Shown: piece after piece, positions 2-56,113 of the stretch
How positions within the stretch are numbered: the stretch's first letter is position 1
Layout: each line of letters begins with the position of its first letter
From: a virus
IMG/VR virus record: IMGVR_UViG_3300035698_029829
Coordinates: 1-64,000 of that record
Reading direction: 5' to 3' (one strand)
DNA: 64,000 nt
The notes under the pieces: generated by a model
Databases searched by the model: none
What the model was told of the DNA's origin: nothing
Seen by the model: the letters and a program-made list of their open reading frames with translations, nothing else
Position numbers and translations under genes: made by a program

Positions 2-748
2 ATCCATGATAAGAATAAGCATCCGGAGGATCGTAAGCGCAAGCCCAAGCGTACTCCCTCGGACCCGACTGCCCAGCATTTGGAGAACTACACCAATTAC
101 TTCCAGCCACCCCTGGACACCCCGGGGCGCGCACCATCAGGCAATCTCTCCCTCTTCGACCCCGACAACCCCGACCGCAACCTTATCGACGAAGTGGAGA
201 TGGAGATCAACGTGCTCTCCGCACCACCTTCGAAGCTTTACCGCCTCGACTTCGACCGAACCGACATCGACGATCTTCATGGCGAAGCACAGACCCGATA
301 CTACCGACCGCCCATCCGCGTTTACGGCGACTACGAGGACGTAAGCTTCGAGTCGGCCCTAACGCGCTTCGGCATCGACGAGCGTCAAGAAATCGACATG
401 ACGTTCAACTACACCTACCTCTTACGTGACTGCGGTGGTCAGATCAACGAGGGTGACCTCATCCAAACCTACGACGGTCGCCTGTGGGAGGTCATCAGCT
501 CGGTGGTACAGGACGAGCCACTCTGGCGATTCCAACACGACTATCTCCACCTTAAGCGTGTAGCGGGCGAAGGCTACCGCATCCCCGATCCCGACAAACC
601 TGGCGAATGGCTTGACCTCAGCGACTCCCCCAACGTGGGGAGTAAAACGGGACGTAACCCGAAGCAAGAGGACGAACCTCGCAAGGAGGAACAGCGGGAG
701 GTGGAAGTGAAACAGAAAGTAGCGTCGAGCCGAATCGACGATTACTAA
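2..748 (+). CDS. Neck protein, T4 gp14-like (5' end outside window)
   Basis: The frame is open from base 2 with no start codon, so the protein begins left of the window; 248 residues are visible. A Lys/Arg-rich lead is followed by PIRVYGDYEDVSF, FGIDERQEIDMTF and, near residue 147, INEGDLIQTYDGRLWEV. This pattern of a beta domain with a G-D-L-I loop recalls the T4 gp14 neck family, which joins head and tail. Context agrees: gp15-like, sheath and tube genes follow on the same strand in T4 order. The last 40 residues are Lys/Glu-rich and probably disordered. Recognition rests on short motifs; another neck or adaptor family is possible. Confidence 0.5.
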   Translation: MHDKNKHPEDRKRKPKRTPSDPTAQHLENYTNYFQPPLDTPGRAPSGNLSLFDPDNPDRNLIDEVEMEINVLSAPPSKLYRLDFDRTDIDDLHGEAQTRYYRPPIRVYGDYEDVSFESALTRFGIDERQEIDMTFNYTYLLRDCGGQINEGDLIQTYDGRLWEVISSVVQDEPLWRFQHDYLHLKRVAGEGYRIPDPDKPGEWLDLSDSPNVGSKTGRNPKQEDEPRKEEQREVEVKQKVASSRIDDY

Positions 749-760
749 GGAGTTACAATC

Positions 761-2290
761 ATGAAAGACAGACTACGTTTTACCAATTTCACCGACAACC
801 GAACAGCCGAAGACTTGCTCCAGGAATGGTCGGAGCCAACCGACCTCCTCGGTGAAGCAGGCTGGGACAACCTCTGGACTTCGTACTACGCCGGTAAGGT
901 GCCACACCCGAAGACCAAGAACATGTTTCAGGGCACCACCGCCGACATCCCAGAGAAGTACCGAGCAGGCGTAGCCGCCGCACAACAGGGCGGCGAAGAA
1001 AAGGCGAAACCCACTGCTGCCAAAAAACCAGCGGTACCCACTGCAAAACCGACAGCCCAAAAACCAACTACGGTGCCCGGTGGCCTCAACGACTCGGATG
1101 TGGACGCCCTCATCAAGGATAACCCGAAAATCAGCGACGGCGTAAAAACCCTTCAGGGTTATGCCAAAAAAGGAGGGCACGACGCACGCGCCATCCTGCG
1201 ACTCGCCGCAGGCAACGTAACGCCGGAAGAAAAGGCAAAGATGGCTAAAACGATGAAGGCAGGGGACGCGAGCAAGCCCTACGGCATCATCTCTGCCTGG
1301 ATCGGCAACCAGATCGAACGCACCAAAGATGGATCGCCGACACCACGTGGGACCAAGGATTTCAGAAAAATCATGCACGCCGTAGGCGAGATCAACGGAG
1401 CCCACGAAGAGGAAAAAGAGTGGCAGTCGTCTGAGACCTATAAAGCCAAAGCCAAGGCCAAGCCCACTGCAAAACCGACAGCCCAAAAACCAACTACGGT
1501 GCCCGGTGGCCTCAACGACTCGGATGTGGACGCCCTCATCAAGGATAACCCGAAAATCAGCGACGGCGTAAAAACCCTCCAGAACTACGCTAAAAAAACA
1601 GGTCACGATATGCGCGCCATCCTACGCCTCGCCGCAGGTAACGTAACACCGAAAGAAAAGGCAAAGATGGCCAAGCAAATGAAAGCCGGAGACAGGAGCA
1701 AGCCCTACGGCATCATCTCTGCCTGGATCGGCAACCAGATCGAACGTGATAAAGATGGATCGCCGACGCCGCGCGGAACCAAGGACTTCAAGAAGATCAT
1801 GCACGCCGTAGGCGAGATCAACGGAGCCCACGAAGAGGAAAAAGAGTGGCAGTCGTCTGAGACCTATAAAGAGCAGCAAAAACAAAAACCAGCCAAAGAT
1901 CGTCAGTCGCACACTCAGGAAGCCCCGAAGGAGAAGACCTCCGTCTGGAAACCGGGTGAAAAAGACATGGACAACGACACTACCAACTCCATGTTTGACC
2001 AACTGGATAAGTTCATGGGCAAACAGGTGAATTACACCGACATGAAGGCCAGCCGCACCGGCGGCACCGAAGCCATGCCCGTCATGATGCACAAGGGGAA
2101 GCCCCACCACGGTCTCATGAAGATCGAGAAGGGACACAAGGGCAACATCAGCGTCCTCTTTGACCACCCACTCACCGGCAAGCGCACCAAGGTGTTATTC
2201 CCGTCTCACGTGGGGCCGGAGCACCTGGCCAAATTTCTACACCAGCAGATGACGAAGAAGGTCAAGCCCGAAGACATCAAAGAAGACTAG
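761..2290 (+). CDS. Repetitive putative virion-internal protein with N-terminal cargo motif
   Basis: ATG follows AAGGAG by seven bases, 12 bp after the previous gene. The 509-residue protein starts with FTDNRTAEDLLQEW (residues about 9-23), a motif shared with 2748-3059, 10351-14064 and 42588-43001. Two near-identical 142-residue repeats follow (about residues 95-235 and 237-378), joined by Ala/Lys/Pro/Thr-rich linkers containing KPTAQKPTTVPGG. Each repeat holds NDSDVDALIKDNPKISDGVKTL and SKPYGIISAWIGNQIER. The last 130 residues form a separate domain. I do not recognise the repeat; helical, basic and possibly nucleic-acid binding. The motif suggests packaging in the head (inference). The stop is TAG, and the next gene is in the same frame six bases on. 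Confidence 0.8.
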   Translation: MKDRLRFTNFTDNRTAEDLLQEWSEPTDLLGEAGWDNLWTSYYAGKVPHPKTKNMFQGTTADIPEKYRAGVAAAQQGGEEKAKPTAAKKPAVPTAKPTAQKPTTVPGGLNDSDVDALIKDNPKISDGVKTLQGYAKKGGHDARAILRLAAGNVTPEEKAKMAKTMKAGDASKPYGIISAWIGNQIERTKDGSPTPRGTKDFRKIMHAVGEINGAHEEEKEWQSSETYKAKAKAKPTAKPTAQKPTTVPGGLNDSDVDALIKDNPKISDGVKTLQNYAKKTGHDMRAILRLAAGNVTPKEKAKMAKQMKAGDRSKPYGIISAWIGNQIERDKDGSPTPRGTKDFKKIMHAVGEINGAHEEEKEWQSSETYKEQQKQKPAKDRQSHTQEAPKEKTSVWKPGEKDMDNDTTNSMFDQLDKFMGKQVNYTDMKASRTGGTEAMPVMMHKGKPHHGLMKIEKGHKGNISVLFDHPLTGKRTKVLFPSHVGPEHLAKFLHQQMTKKVKPEDIKED

Positions 2291-2296
2291 GAGGCG

Positions 2297-2734
2297 ATGA
2301 TGCCAATTCACGACCCAATATTTAACGAGATGAAGTACCTGCTGGAAAACACCGGGAAGACCGGTTTCGAAGCGGACGACGAATTCAAGAGCCTCAACGA
2401 CGCAGCCAAACGCCAACGCGAGTTGGCCTCCGGCTCAACCGAAGTCTGGTTCATGCGGCCCCAGTTCTTCTCGCAATTCATCTCGGGCACCCATAGCCCG
2501 ACGATCAAAGACCTCAAGCGAACCCACGTGCTGCTGGGTAAGGTGAAAGAGACCAACCCCGATAAGCTCTACCGCGCCCTCCAAGGCCACCTTTGGTCAC
2601 CAAAGGGTGAGGCACGCGCGCTGATTCTCTCCAAGGGTCTCCAACATACCTCGATGAGCGTCGGCGACGTATTCAAGATCGGTAGCAAGCATTACGTCGT
2701 CGCGCACAGTGGGTTCGCGGAGTTGAACGAATAG
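2297..2734 (+). CDS. Hypothetical protein with TSMSVGDV domain
   Basis: AGGAGG ends six bases before ATG and overlaps the previous TAG stop. The 145-residue protein is soluble and mixed alpha/beta. Near its C-terminus it has KGLQHTSMSVGDVFKIGSKH followed by YVVAHSGF. The H-T-S-M-S-V-G-D-V string recurs in small phage and plasmid proteins of unknown role, some resembling antirestriction-island YodL-type domains; I cannot assign a function. It stops with TAG. It shares frame with the upstream 509-residue protein, so amber readthrough would fuse the two. Confidence 0.75.
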   Translation: MMPIHDPIFNEMKYLLENTGKTGFEADDEFKSLNDAAKRQRELASGSTEVWFMRPQFFSQFISGTHSPTIKDLKRTHVLLGKVKETNPDKLYRALQGHLWSPKGEARALILSKGLQHTSMSVGDVFKIGSKHYVVAHSGFAELNE

Positions 2735-2747
2735 AAGGGACAAAACC

Positions 2748-3059
2748 ATGAACGACAAAAGAAACGTCAATGACATCCTGACTGAGTGGGACGGCGACCC
2801 GCTGGACGATTCCTCGGTGAACGAGGACTCAGCCACACCCAGGGCACTTCAGACGGCGCATACCATACTCCGGTCGCTGGACGACCACGTCGATAACGCA
2901 CGATTTGCGATTCAGGAGTTCGTCAGGGGAAACCCGATTGCGAGTAAGGAGAGCCGTCTGGCCGACCTCGTCAAGGCGTCTGAGAAAATCGTCGCCCAGG
3001 GTAAGAGGCTGCACACCCAGGCCGTCAAGGCTCAGACGGAGTTTAGTAAGAAGAAGTGA
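2748..3059 (+). CDS. Small protein with cargo-type N-terminal motif
   Basis: 103 residues. ATG is preceded by GAAGGG at seven bases. Residues 1-15 read MNDKRNVNDILTEWD, the same motif as in three other proteins of this window (D-x-R-x-V-x-[DE]-[IL]-L-x-E-W). The rest is predicted helical and ends in a Lys run. It resembles a small internal head protein in which only the leader is conserved; that role is inferred. Between-gene spacing is 13 bp upstream and 20 bp downstream, consistent with one operon. Confidence 0.75.
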   Translation: MNDKRNVNDILTEWDGDPLDDSSVNEDSATPRALQTAHTILRSLDDHVDNARFAIQEFVRGNPIASKESRLADLVKASEKIVAQGKRLHTQAVKAQTEFSKKK

Positions 3060-3079
3060 CCGAGTAAAGGAGATCGTCG

Positions 3080-3835
3080 TTGCGTATTGAATCCATCCTC
3101 ATCCAAGAACGCTACTGCCCGCCGCTGACGCCCGAGACGTTCAGTGCAGGCTTCGCCGCCGCGCGCGAAGGCGCAGGCCAGGATGAACGTTTGGACTACG
3201 CTGCCAAAGCAGGACGCTACATCACCTTCCACCCCGCCGCCAACGGAGGCGTTGAGGTGGTCGCCTGGGGCTACGACGTAAGCCAACCGGACGCCGATAA
3301 CACAGGGAAGTTCGAGCGACGCTCGATCTTTTTACCCGACGAAGCCGAAAAAGCCCGGGTTTGGGTGGGCGATCAGGTCGAGGGCCTTCTCTGGGAGGCT
3401 GGAATTGGCGACCGCTGGAAGAAGTTCGGCCGAAAGAAGCCTGTCGCAATTAACAAATTGCGGTACAACGAACCCCTGGACCGCGCCAAACGGGCTGCCC
3501 ACGTAAACCTCCAATTCCTGGGCGAGGTGCCCGGCGTCGACCCCGTGGGCGGCCGTTTCCGCTCCTTCCGTTTTATAGCCGGAGAACACAAGGAACGTTA
3601 CGCAGTAGAGGTACGCCTTTACGGAAAAATTAACGGTATCGCCCCTGCTTGGGTTAACTGCGGGTGCAAAGACCACCGTTACAAGTGGGAGTGGGCGCTG
3701 GCAAGCCGCGAGAGCGCGGGTCTCATACATGCCCGAGACCAAAAGCCCATTATCCTCAACCCCCGACTGCTCAAGGCCACCTGTAAGCACGTCCACGCCG
3801 CCCTGGAATGGTTGAGATGGAATAAGGGAGCCTGA
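3080..3835 (+). CDS. SWIM-like zinc-motif protein
   Basis: 251 residues; start TTG, chosen because AAAGGAG lies eight bases upstream and no ATG is available. The C-terminal third carries VNCGCKDHRYKWEWAL, then 35 residues later ILNPRLLKATCKHVHAALEW: a C-x-C...C-x-H arrangement as in SWIM-type zinc sites, a pattern seen in conserved proteins of T4-like phages. The N-terminus is Ala/Glu-rich. Function unknown; lying between internal-protein and tail genes it is probably a virion or assembly protein. Confidence 0.7.
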   Translation: MRIESILIQERYCPPLTPETFSAGFAAAREGAGQDERLDYAAKAGRYITFHPAANGGVEVVAWGYDVSQPDADNTGKFERRSIFLPDEAEKARVWVGDQVEGLLWEAGIGDRWKKFGRKKPVAINKLRYNEPLDRAKRAAHVNLQFLGEVPGVDPVGGRFRSFRFIAGEHKERYAVEVRLYGKINGIAPAWVNCGCKDHRYKWEWALASRESAGLIHARDQKPIILNPRLLKATCKHVHAALEWLRWNKGA

Positions 3836-4093
3836 ATGGGCGTAGATGAACGACTTGATGCCTACTTCGATAAGCTGGAAAGGGAAATGCGTCTAGCCCT
3901 CGCCAATGAGCTGACAACCCTAAGTGGCCTAACATTCGAAGAAGATAAGGACAGGAAGATCGTAGCTCCCGCCGACTCAATGCAGGCGCGACTGCTACAA
4001 TCTGGCAGCGCTTCGTTGGGCAGAGCCCCGCAGCCTTTCTTTGACCAGGCGCTAGCACTCTTCAGTAGCAGAGCGGGGATCAAAAGAGGTTAA
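3836..4093 (+). CDS. Small hypothetical protein
   Basis: 85 residues. ATG follows the upstream TGA directly, so translation is probably coupled. The first half is an acidic/basic helix (MGVDERLDAYFDKLEREMRL); the second is loop-rich. No family recognised. It lies directly in front of the gp15-like gene. Confidence 0.65.
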   Translation: MGVDERLDAYFDKLEREMRLALANELTTLSGLTFEEDKDRKIVAPADSMQARLLQSGSASLGRAPQPFFDQALALFSSRAGIKRG

Positions 4094-5493: not shown

Positions 5494-8400
5494 ATGTCGG
5501 ACGTTATGTCCCCCGCTGTTGTAACCAGCGAACACGATCTGAGCTTCGTGGCCCCGGCGATCAGCACATCCATCGCGGCCATCATGGGAGCGGCTCGCAA
5601 AGGTGCGGTGAACAAACCGTCCTATGTGACAACGCCATCCCAGTACGAAGACACCTTCGGTGCGCCGCTAACGACTGACTACGCAGGTCACTGCGCAATT
5701 CTCTACCTGAAGCAGGCGAGTATGCTCTGGTTCAACCGGGTAGGATCGTTGCGCGGCACTGACCCCGTCGCCACAGCAAACACGGATACCCGTGCTACGC
5801 TGGACCAAACCGATGCGACGGCGTTCCTCGTCCCCACGGACGTGATGGACTTGGCAAACCCCACCTCAAAATACCTGCGACTACGTTTCGACTCGGAAAC
5901 CGAGAAGGACGTTACGATCACCTTCACTGCCGCCATCTGCGCCTCGATGGTAAGGTCGACGCTCGACGACACGATGCAAGCGCTGTGTAACTTCATCAAC
6001 ACGCAGCTCTCCGGCAACGATACGTTCGAACCCCGCTACGGGTACGCCACCTACATCGCGGCCACGACCGGACGACGGATACGAGTTTACAGCCAAGCCA
6101 AAATCGGCCCCTATTCGAAAATCGAAGTACTCGCGCCCACCCTGGGTAGCGACGCCGCTACCGACTTCGGATGGACCTCCGGAGTAACCTCGGCCGAGGG
6201 TGAACGCACTGTCCTGGTCACGGTTGATATGACCTCAGCTGAAATCATCTCTGCCGTTGCCGGTCTAACCGGAGCTTTCAACCTGGGCACCTCCGCCTCC
6301 GTCGTTTCCGGCGAAGCCGAAAACTACAACCTCGGCGAGCTGTCAGAGGGGGAAATGAACTACGGCGTCCCAGTCACAGCCGACGGCCACTCGTTCGTCG
6401 TCTCTCAGAACCTGAACACCGTCGCCATAATGAACGCCGCCGCTTCGTTGCCGCTTATGCTGTACACCCAGCTCAAAGCCGCTCCCTACTCGACGATCAA
6501 CCCGTACATCCGTATGTACGTGGACGGCTACACAGTGGAATTCCAGGTGCCTCTGACAACCTGGCCCGCCGCCGGAGCACTGACCAATACGCAGCTCCAG
6601 CAACTGGTGAACATCATCAACGCCGCGTGCCCCGCCCAACTCGGTTCCATCGCATACTGGGACAGCGTAAACCAGTACATCGTCCTCCAGTCGCCGGGCA
6701 AAGCCACGAGCTACTCCTACATTACAATCCCCGAAGGACAACCCGATTCGCCAGTCAACAACGCCGCCGCCGCACGCCTTCTCTTGATGACGTTGGGGCT
6801 TGGCAACTACACCGACAAAAAAGTCAGCAATGGCCTGACCGTCGAGGTCGACGGCGAGGCAAGCACTCTAAGTTTCAACTACAGCACCCTCGTCACGCAG
6901 GGTTTCCGCCCCGCCTTCCTGTCTCAAACCCAGATGATCTCGGCGATGAACGCACAGCTCGGCCAAACACTTGTCTACGACAACAGCGGGATCGACCTGA
7001 TCGTGCGCGACGACACCCCGGGGGTTTATGGCTCGTTAAAGATGTACGGTCGTGGTTACGGCCGTGCCCTGACAGGCACCTCCCACGCAGTTGCCGCTCA
7101 ATTCTATCAGCCAAACACCGGCACCAAAACCCGAGCCGAGGGCTACGACGTACAGACGGCAGGCACTCTCACCGACACTCTTTCGATGTTGTACCTCAAG
7201 TTCGAGTTCGGTACCGATTGGGCATGGGTGGGCTTCCGCAACGTAGCCTACAATGTGACACGCCAGACCTTCATAGTCGGCAACATCGCCTTGCTCTCCG
7301 CATCAATGCCGGTAACGACCGTACAAAAAACAGCTTTCAAAGCATCTCTGGCTACGGCAGTCTCTGCACACGCGATCAAATCGCAAGCCGGTGATTTCGG
7401 TTCTTACAGCACCTCAACCTTGGGCTGGGTCGCAGCCGCACCGGCAGCCGGTACCATCGCGAACGTCATGCGTGCCGCCGTACTCGTCGGTACCGTAGTA
7501 ATCCTGGCCACCGGCGACAGCGGAGTGGGTAATCCCGACCGTTACTATGCCTCGGTCTACCACGCCTCCGGTCTTGCACCGCAAGAGGGCGACACCCTCG
7601 ATAGCGCGGGTAACCTCTACATCATCAACAAAAGCTTCGAGGACCGCGACCTGGCTATCTACGTCGACAATTCCGCACCCATCACGCTCGCAGGCGTTAA
7701 CTGCACCGAAATCGACGACTCCTACGTGGTCTTCCGGCAACCGATGGGTACCGTCTTCACAGACAGCGTCACCGCGCGCGATTTCGTCACCGGTGACATA
7801 GCCCCCTTCGGTGGAGTCACCGACCAACTCGCGGTTATCGGAGGAAACGTAACTACCACAGGAGCAACCTCAACCCTGGATGCCACCGTTCTTAACCAGT
7901 ACCCCGGCGGCGGTCTAATGCTCGTCTTGGCGCTGGACTTCGTTATTGCCGCTCAAACCTACACAGCCATCGCAGTGGTAGTGCCCGACGGCGAGACCTA
8001 CTTCTCACAGGGTTTGTGGTGGCTGCACACGGCCGCCCCAGTCGTCAGGCCGCTGGTAGATCTCGTCACCATCTGCCCGGCCAATGGATTGACTGTTGAT
8101 TTCACACAGGCTGGTTCGCGTGCCTTCTTCAACACCGTAACGAATCTCATGGATGTTCACCTGATCGGTGTACAGACCAGTAGCGGTGACGCCGTAACAG
8201 CGGTGCGCTACGGTATTCTGATGGGCGCACCCGAAGCTAAGTATGTGCGGTGCCCTTCCACCACTCCAGGTGCATCGGCTGGACCCAACCTCTGGAACCC
8301 GGACCCGGTCTTCAGCCCGCTAACCAACACCTTTAACGCAGGTGAGAAGGCACTCTCCCTCATCGACGACTACGGCGAAGGCTGGAATCTCCTCGGCCTA

Positions 8401-41028: not shown

Positions 41029-41035
41029 TTAGTGG

Positions 41036-41107
41036 TGCGCCAGGTAGGAATTGAACCCACGTGGGCGGAGTTAGAACCCGCTGCCTAAACCATTCGGCCA
41101 CTGGCGC
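41036..41107 (-). tRNA. Amber suppressor tRNA (anticodon CTA)
   Basis: Acceptor GCGCCAG/CTGGCGC (perfect), A73 and CCA encoded, D-arm GCCGAATGGTTTAGGC, stem GCGGG/TCCGC around TTCTAAC with U33 and anticodon C-U-A, T-arm GTGGG/CCTAC. It reads UAG. It lies downstream of the PTH2-like gene and of a gene with an in-frame TAG (41415-41852) in one apparent unit from promoter P7. The charged amino acid cannot be read from sequence. Confidence 0.92.
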
Positions 41108-41111
41108 ACAC

Positions 41112-41133
41112 GTCGGGGGGTCACCCCCCCGAC
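41112..41133 (-). other. Hairpin between PTH2-like gene and amber tRNA
   Basis: GTCGGGGGG and CCCCCCGAC form a 9-bp stem with a tiny loop, four bases before the tRNA 5' end. No T-run; possible RNase III or RNase P processing signal. Confidence 0.5.
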
Positions 41134-41143
41134 AAACTAGTTG

Positions 41144-41443
41144 TCAAAGAAGCCTGAGCCGATCCAGGTCGGTCTCCAGGCCAGGGGGCGTTCCGACGAA
41201 CGCCAACGAGGTTGTTTGATCATCAAAGTAGGGCTCGCAGAAGGTAGCAAAGCTATGCTTCGCATCGCCGAGACTGACCTCCCACTTACGCAGGTGCGCC
41301 TCGTCCTTCACGCCGAGCGCCACGATGGTGTCATTCCAGCCAACGGGGTTACCGCCCTTGAGCAGCTCTGCCACTGCGTGACAGGACTGAACGAGTCGCT
41401 GGGACGCGGTCAAATCACGCCTGGTGAGTATGAAGAGTTTCAT
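41144..41443 (-). CDS. Peptidyl-tRNA hydrolase 2-like protein
   Basis: 99 residues from ATG 41443 (GGAGGAG four bases ahead). MKLFILTRRDLTASQRLVQS then CHAVAELLKG follows the PTH2 start (V-x-R-x-D-L ... Q-x-x-H-A), and KWEVSLGDAKHSFATFCEPY plus TTSLAFVGTP fit its C-terminal half. PTH2 frees tRNA from stalled peptidyl-tRNA. It overlaps the amber-interrupted gene upstream and precedes the amber tRNA. Confidence 0.55.
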   Translation of the reverse strand: MKLFILTRRDLTASQRLVQSCHAVAELLKGGNPVGWNDTIVALGVKDEAHLRKWEVSLGDAKHSFATFCEPYFDDQTTSLAFVGTPPGLETDLDRLRLL

Positions 41444-41852
41444 TGGTCTCCTCCTTCTCAACAGGCCACGGAATACGGAAGTCATCCGCCTCACTGAGCA
41501 CGAAAGGTGCGCAATAATCGCGAACCATCTCACCGAAGAGCCGTTCGATGCGCCGGAGAATCTCCTCGCGACGGGGTTCATTCCCTTGCCGGTTCGTCTG
41601 TTCGATCTGCCGGAGGGAGCGCCCGCGCACAAGACAGTACGCCAGGTGGTTATACCGGAAGTCCTGGCTGTCATACTCTGCACGTTTGCCCTCACGCCGT
41701 TGCGCTTTGATGGATTCCGCGAGTTTTTTCTGGGATGCCTTAACCGCTGCGATCTTCGTTTTGAGATCGGCTACTGTCTCCTCCGTAAAGGGTGAGGTGA
41801 AACGGGTTGTTTCGCTCGGAGAAGGTTCGAGTTGCTTGGCTACCTACGTCAT
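41415..41852 (-). CDS. Hypothetical protein with in-frame amber codon 3
   Basis: ATG 41852 stands eight bases after GGAGG. Codons read ATG ACG TAG GTA GCC AAG and then stay open for 142 codons to TGA 41415: QLEPSPSETTRFTSPFTEET, VADLKTKIAAVKASQKKLAE, YDSQDFRYNHLAYCLVRGRS, RREEILRRIERLFGEMVRDY. The whole stretch is coding-like, and no ATG, GTG or TTG occurs until GTG 41630, deep inside. Production of the full 145-residue protein therefore needs readthrough by the amber tRNA encoded 308 bases downstream. Function unknown; helical, charged. A sequencing error is the main alternative. Confidence 0.7.
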
Positions 41853-41915: not shown

Positions 41916-41944
41916 AATGTAAGGCTTCTTGTGGAGTTTGTCAA
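41916..41944 (-). promoter_or_regulatory. Promoter P7 (TTGACA-17-TACATT)
   Basis: -35 at 41939-41944 in ACTCTTGACAAAC, -10 at 41916-41921. Drives the amber-interrupted gene; the leader contains a GCCGG/CCGGC hairpin. Confidence 0.75.
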
Positions 41945-43888: not shown

Positions 43889-44018
43889 GACCGCGAGAGT
43901 TGGCGGTAACGGTGATTACTACGGGGATCGAACCCGCATGACCCTTTCGGGTCGTCAGTTTTGTGGACTGATGCCTAAACCAATTCGGCGAAGTAACCGG
44001 TACCTGTGCTGCGCGGCC
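43889..44018 (-). ncRNA. Y-RNA-like element B enclosing a class II tRNA-like module
   Basis: Minus strand: outer stem GGCCGCG/CGCGGTC (one G-U), internal loop CAGCACA opposite GCCAACTCT, inner stem GGTACC..., then a tRNA-like module (43913-43998): acceptor GGTTACT/AGTAATC, D-arm almost identical to the amber tRNA, stem TCAGT/ACTGA around CCACAAA (C33, anticodon ACA), long variable arm GACCC-GAAA-GGGTC, intact T-arm. ACA on a class II scaffold has no normal decoding role, which favours a tRNA mimic. Same outer architecture as A, C and D. Confidence 0.65.
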
Positions 44019-55981: not shown

Positions 55982-56113
55982 GGCGGCGAGAGTGAGCGGC
56001 GTGGGGGTATTGGCTCACTTGGTGGGAGTTGAACCCACGTCCTTCAGATTAATAGTCTGCTGCTCTACCATCAGAGCTTCAGGTGAAGTACCCCACGCCT
56101 GTGCTGCGCCGCC
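55982..56113 (-). ncRNA. Y-RNA-like element A enclosing a tRNA-Asn-like module
   Basis: Minus strand: outer stem GGCGGCG/CGCCGCC (perfect), internal loop CAGCACA opposite GCTCACTCT, inner stem GGCGTGGGG/CCCCACGCC (perfect 9 bp), then TACTTC and a tRNA-like module (56014-56086): acceptor TCACCTG/CAAGTGA with one mismatch, G73, encoded CCA, stem CAGA/TCTG around CTATTAA (anticodon ATT), intact T-arm. A34 is unusual for tRNA-Asn. It lies 19 bases downstream of the Ro60 stop codon, as Y RNA genes often neighbour Ro60 genes. Confidence 0.68.

Follow-up and report, generated by a model that had tools for sequence, protein, structure and literature searches.

Large phages of diverse lineages have a PTH2-like gene with an in-frame stop codon, nearly always amber (TAG), a few codons after the start, and in most cases there is a tRNA gene nearby on the same strand with the anticodon that matches the stop. 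We think it very likely that this is a suppressor-tRNA gate on the PTH2-like gene, and that the gated gene is probably made only when the matching suppressor tRNA works. The starting point was a 64,000-nucleotide stretch (the window), comprising positions 1 to 64,000 of the 156,689-base virus record IMGVR_UViG_3300035698_029829. In the window an original prediction, made from the sequence alone, had proposed that an open reading frame (ORF), P0001, with TAG as its third codon is gated by a tRNA with anticodon CUA encoded just downstream. Suppressor-dependent gating has gained strong support, as the early TAG recurs with CUA tRNAs and is replaced by TGA in phage Atu_ph07. What has not stood is P0001 as the end point, as the comparison points to the PTH2-like gene beside it.

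Early stop codons in PTH2-like genes and the matching tRNAs

A search with the window gene led to contig G001, in which AAGGAG precedes a PTH2 gene that reads ATG AGT CAC TAG, and two CUA tRNAs lie upstream. Homologues were then sought by tblastn of this G001 gene against 50,697 phage records and by further searches of viral contigs. When the homologues are clustered at 90% identity, 38 of the 45 clusters have a TAG at codon 2 to 8 (24 of 31 at 70% and 12 of 17 at 50%), and those with the TAG include ME3, Arash, CBB, GAP32, BF, pT24, XacN1, CM1 and many from uncultivated phages. The seven ungated clusters comprise one with TAA, from Lak phages, and six without an early stop. The TAG is mostly codon 3 or 4, and the residues read up to it are MAQ, MAH, MTH, MSH, MT, ML, MK, MN and others. 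Among close relatives the codons beside the TAG vary, with MAQ, MAH, MTH or MSH ahead of it, and the TAG is constant. It is also retained in PTH2 genes fused to an HD domain, where it follows MK (XacN1, RAS14 and CM1). Most gated PTH2 genes have no ATG, GTG or TTG from the TAG to the conserved RxD motif. Because of the early TAG, deposited annotations misplace or omit the gene; in L026, L031, L033, L034, L043 and others the annotated PTH2 begins at an internal ATG or is absent. The scan made of bacterial genomes gave no relatives of the G001 PTH2.

There is a same-strand CUA tRNA within the fetched locus for 31 of the 38 gated clusters and for none of the 7 ungated clusters, and three more gated clusters (XacN1, CM1 and LR756511) have one elsewhere in the genome. 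All 63 loci for which there is a distance have their nearest CUA tRNA on the same strand, 16 to 3974 nucleotides away. RaK2 and Hallingskeid have no gate, and no CUA tRNA among the tRNAs read. In 37 of 38 clusters a purine follows the TAG, compared with a background of 61% for ordinary codons 4 to 6; a purine at this position is known, from work of Bossi and of Miller and Albertini, to favour amber suppression. The P values for the tRNA association (7.6e-5) and the purine (2.7e-7) are too small, because the clusters share ancestry, and are not to be taken as proofs. The CUA tRNAs differ between phages in the tRNA of their own genome that they most resemble (Glu, Thr, Lys or Met), and so do not point to any one inserted amino acid.

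Phage Atu_ph07 was picked as a test because its only suppressor tRNA is reported to be of a different type, so that a gate that follows the suppressor would there have an early TGA. It is reported to have a single suppressor tRNA, with anticodon UCA, and two peptidyl-tRNA hydrolases (PMC6102473), and the tRNA is taken from that report. In one of its PTH2 genes (AUZ95035, for which the annotated start is an internal ATG) codon 7 is TGA. This gene reads AAAGGTAATACA ATG ATT GGC GAA CAC TTT TGA ATT AAT into the PTH2 domain, so that the TGA precedes the domain, and there is no other start until inside it.

The Lak phages recode TAG, and their PTH2 is ungated with a UUA tRNA beside it. An ochre gate was considered for them, as Lak-B7 reads ATG AAT ATC TAA beside the UUA tRNA, and was rejected because Lak-A1 lacks the TAA and shares the later ATG. 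The UUA tRNA is upstream of PTH2 in both (L040 3377-3449 in Lak-B7 and L237 296-368 in Lak-A1), and the ORF between the two genes shares an overlap with PTH2 like that of P0001 in the window. UUA tRNAs are also present in some amber-gated phages and contigs (L168 12612-12686, which is CM1, L225 11147-11225 and L222 4000-4070), and in L223 a UCA tRNA (6421-6493) lies just downstream of an ungated PTH2-like gene.

With regard to the use of TAG elsewhere, eight phage genomes were scanned for a start followed within 8 codons by a stop and then by a coding frame. TAG is an ordinary stop in all eight. It ends 23 of 120 long ORFs in the window phage (G000), in keeping with the earlier claim that this is not whole-genome recoding, and 17 of 141 in G001, 9 of 118 in Arash, 14 of 157 in pT24 and 6 of 230 in BF. 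Arash, pT24 and BF each have PTH2 as their best early-TAG candidate, and the window phage has P0001, one gene per genome. PTH2 also ranks first in ME3, but with a low prefix score (3.7) and no good Shine-Dalgarno sequence; it is fourth by prefix score in G001, and in XacN1 it is not listed because an ATG follows five codons past the TAG. Comparable TAA or TGA candidates are absent apart from one weak TAA case in BF (prefix 7.6), which has an ATG 15 codons on. Genome-wide recoding of TAG (code 15) is thus rejected, as TAG ends ordinary genes and there is one early-TAG gene in each of the window phage, Arash, pT24 and BF.

The gated proteins belong to the PTH2 fold, with the Pfam PF01981 profile matching 11 of 13 aligned phage members at E values up to 0.1. 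They depart from canonical PTH2, such as the Sulfolobus enzyme, in the catalytic lysine (Lys) and the DAGxT motif. The aligned Lys is missing from all 53 gated proteins, being Q, Y, T or another residue, and also from the window copy, and the Asp of DAGxT is Glu in 52 of the 53. They are thus members of the fold that, with the catalytic Lys missing, may act by binding and not by hydrolysis.

The locus in the window

The window comes from a tailed phage, as judged by its tail sheath protein; a search with that protein gave no close relatives. ARAGORN finds 50 tRNAs in the whole record, and there is a tmRNA. The features of the locus are given in Table 1.

Table 1. Features of the gated locus in the window (coordinates are window positions)
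Feature	Position	Strand	Remarks
Sigma-70-like promoter match, TTGACA-17-TACATT	41916..41944	-	Upstream of P0001; 10/12 matches
Shine-Dalgarno GGAGG of P0001	41861..41865	-	8 nt ahead of ATG
P0001, putatively amber-gated ORF	41415..41852	-	ATG ACG TAG, 142 open codons, TGA 41417-41415
In-frame amber codon 3 of P0001 (putative gate)	41844..41846	-	Next base purine (G)
Predicted hairpin, PTH2 Shine-Dalgarno paired with CUCUUC	41419..41466	-	Ends 1 nt before P0001 stop
Shine-Dalgarno AAGGAGG of PTH2-like gene	41450..41456	-	Within P0001
PTH2-like gene, 99 aa	41144..41443	-	Start overlaps P0001 end by 29 nt
Amber suppressor tRNA, anticodon CUA, U33, encoded CCA	41033..41107	-	ARAGORN; Rfam tRNA 57.8 bits
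Second odd tRNA, enlarged anticodon loop with UUAA	40953..41028	-	50 bits; adjoins amber tRNA

Direct reading of the minus strand agrees with what had been described for P0001: the ATG (41852-41850) follows GGAGG, ACG and the TAG come next, and GTG 41630, 71 codons in, is the earliest ATG, GTG or TTG past the TAG. The 71 codons ahead of this GTG look like coding sequence. They score 16.9 bits by the codon usage of the window phage when 30 ORFs are used for training (12.4 bits with a 120-ORF training set). For comparison with the 16.9 bits, windows of 71 codons from true genes have a median of 17.3, and the +1 frame has its 99th percentile at -2.2. P0001 is the only TAG candidate in the 157 kb genome with a good Shine-Dalgarno sequence and a coding prefix, and there is none for TAA or TGA. 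Its Shine-Dalgarno site is open, with an unfolding cost of 4.5 kcal/mol. The promoter match is weak, as 0.8 such sites are expected by chance. The longest ORF by ATG, GTG or TTG start at this locus, 41144-41695, is PTH2 with a chance extension upstream, which scores -27.8 bits. P0001 has no relative in the viral contigs, phages, Pfam, PHROGs or fetched genomes, and its AlphaFold model, helical at low confidence (pLDDT 52), was not used.

The CUA tRNA, which is canonical, is where it had been placed, 308 bases downstream of P0001, and is 37 nucleotides past the PTH2-like gene and in the same direction. The adjoining odd tRNA may act as an ochre suppressor or as a reader of four-base codons, or it may be a decayed gene. 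The tRNA array also includes tRNAs with the unusual anticodons ACA (Cys) and ATT (Asn), at 43911-43998 and 56011-56086.

The gene between P0001 and the tRNA had been called PTH2-like, and this is upheld. The protein has a PHROG hydrolase match (E 1.8e-5), its AlphaFold model has a pLDDT of 85, and with that model the top 14 Foldseek matches in the PDB are all of the PTH2 family (2zv3 with E 4e-5 and TM 0.76). It is 43% identical to the G001 PTH2, which exceeds the Pfam PTH2 cut-off (29.7 bits against 23); by itself the window protein matches nothing in Pfam at E values up to 1.

In the window phage the amber is in P0001, just upstream of PTH2, and not in PTH2 itself. We suggest that it probably still controls PTH2, by translational coupling with P0001. 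The PTH2 Shine-Dalgarno sequence is predicted to lie in a hairpin of -21 kcal/mol, and its opening cost of 12.7 kcal/mol compares with a median of 7.3 and a 90th percentile of 13.1 for 63 window genes. Ribosomes finishing P0001 would melt this hairpin, so PTH2 should depend on suppression. Coupling would thus be the link from the window to the gates of the other phages, which need none.

Mechanism and alternatives

We infer that the early stops are suppressed, in the following way. Ribosomes would start at the ATG and reach the UAG within a few codons. When there is no charged tRNA-CUA, release factor 1 (RF1) would release a di- or tripeptide and there would be no protein, and when there is charged tRNA-CUA part of the ribosomes would read through to give the full protein. 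The protein would then appear only once the phage tRNA had been made, processed and charged. With the tRNA gene near and on the same strand, the tRNA together with its target could work as a coherent feed-forward switch. In most phages with this module the UAG that is read would be inside the PTH2-like gene; in the window phage it would be in the overlapping upstream P0001, where ribosomes passing the amber would unfold the hairpin over the PTH2 ribosome site and so allow PTH2 to be translated.

Several observations weigh against a gate of this kind, in particular phages or in general. XacN1 has the ATG five codons past the TAG mentioned above, and in mycobacteriophages the Shine-Dalgarno spacing is better for a GTG directly behind the TAG, so that two mycobacteriophage clusters may not be gated. 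LR745206 and LR756504 are gated with no CUA tRNA among those read (LR756504 being partly unread), some gated metagenome loci have none in the stretch fetched, and contig G002 has an ungated PTH2 together with a CUA-type tRNA with an odd T-loop. The other PTH2 of Atu_ph07, gp680, is of the canonical type and ungated. In the window, the hairpin has a z score of -3.9 with hand-picked ends and of only -2.9, -1.7 and -0.8 in wider stretches, and the TAG of P0001, known from a single record, may be erroneous or have arisen recently by mutation. As a separate observation, the mycobacteriophages Myrna and Cane17 have CUA tRNAs near PTH2 (L046 4481-4552 and L047 4601-4673), and the gene reads ATG-TAG-GTG or GTG-TAG-GTG in the region of its start, where either the first codon or the last GTG may begin translation.

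The last of these doubts applies to the window only. The TAG at 41846 could stem from faulty sequencing, from a variant in the assembly or from a recent nonsense mutation, its likeness to the PTH2 gates being coincidental; a single-base error is conceivable because no P0001 relative was found, and the gene with the amber is not the one that has it in other phages. Against this, both partners of the module, PTH2 and the CUA tRNA, lie next to the TAG with the same orientation, and there is no other such candidate in 157 kb; we regard an error or chance mutation as improbable. It is more improbable still that translation begins downstream, at a non-standard codon or at GTG 41630, with ATG-ACG-TAG as a leader. 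That GTG does exist, and the GTG after the TAG in mycobacteriophages looks like the true start, but the coding signal of P0001 reaches well upstream of GTG 41630, and in most gated PTH2 genes there is no start codon at which translation could begin ahead of the RxD motif. We give hardly any credence to the idea that the ORF of two to seven codons is itself the product, a minigene causing peptidyl-tRNA drop-off like the bar minigenes of lambda and coupled to a peptidyl-tRNA hydrolase. The position of the TAG, mostly codon 3 or 4, does give the known length of drop-off minigenes, and the gene is PTH2-like; what such a minigene leaves without account is the open coding frame after the stop, and the match of stop to suppressor, with TAG in phages that have CUA and TGA where UCA is reported.

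The other two proposals concern the reason for a gate. A homeostatic feedback is compatible with the suppressor-tRNA gate and would be the reason for it: by its effect on suppressor tRNA, charged or peptidyl, the PTH2-like protein would keep UAG readthrough in other genes within bounds, much as prfB regulates itself. The gated gene is nearly always from a family that handles peptidyl-tRNA, the tRNA adjoins the gene, and the genomes concerned still end genes with TAG. However, with the Lys missing from all 53 proteins, hydrolysis of any tRNA ester is hypothetical, and we see feedback as possible but rather unlikely. We would say the same of the proposal that the gate serves for timing or control of leakage only, with slow build-up of the tRNA delaying a protein that is harmful early, so that any gene would serve. 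With a stop so early there is no truncated protein, and in E. coli leak is removed by a coherent feed-forward loop of such build (PMC7969014), but the gate is tied to one gene family across many phages and not to varied late genes. Returning to the suppressor-tRNA gate itself, we tentatively suggest, at somewhat less than even chances, that it is a widespread control module of phages in which the suppressor tRNA is kept for a single target. The target would be a protein of the PTH2 fold that lacks the catalytic Lys, binds charged or peptidyl suppressor tRNA and holds suppression at a set level. This would give selective stop suppression in which the gate stop follows the anticodon (amber with CUA, opal with UCA).

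Relation to known systems

In many large phages that are not recoded there are amber suppressor tRNAs for which no target is known. The authors of the XacN1 study followed the reading frame past 18 amber stops in search of a target and could identify none (PMC5852040), and the question why 'non-functioning' suppressor tRNAs persist in lytic phages is put in a 2025 study of Zeta crAss-like phages (PMC12386605). The module described here may explain why such phages carry them, as the early stop of PTH2 is a concrete target, present in the cultivated phages ME3, Arash, BF, CBB, GAP32, pT24, XacN1, RAS14/CM1 and Atu_ph07. It is also of consequence for annotation, since gene finders truncate or miss the PTH2 genes with an early stop.

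In code 15 phages (crAss-like and Lak) a phage suppressor tRNA makes TAG a sense codon in many genes. The likeness is in a phage-encoded suppressor tRNA that reads a stop in phage genes; the difference is that in the phages discussed here TAG stays a stop, and essentially one gene has a TAG a few codons past the start. The prfB gene, for RF2, also has an early in-frame stop, and is autoregulated by a +1 frameshift at codon 26. In both cases an early stop in a translation-related gene would sense decoding against termination, but prfB does so by frameshift, whereas the phage gate would use readthrough in the same frame, at codon 2 to 8, by a dedicated tRNA. The bldA tRNA of Streptomyces, which reads the rare sense codon TTA, is similar in that a few genes are controlled through a codon that a single tRNA reads; the bldA codon is a sense codon and the gate codon a stop.

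With regard to the protein, Iyer et al. (2021) note PTH2 among the proteins of jumbo phages and raise a possible role in ribosome rescue (PMC7824862). The family is the same; the passages of that paper on PTH2 do not include an early stop or a suppressor tRNA, and the gated proteins lack the catalytic Lys. In the open-access papers searched we found no report that PTH2 genes with an early stop go together with a phage suppressor tRNA. A parallel in design is the synthetic suppressor-tRNA feed-forward dampener of leakage made by Ho et al. (PMC7969014), in which a nonsense codon and a controlled suppressor tRNA likewise give conditional expression. That system is engineered, whereas the phage arrangement is natural and conserved, and the gate would thus be a natural counterpart to engineered suppressor-tRNA switches.
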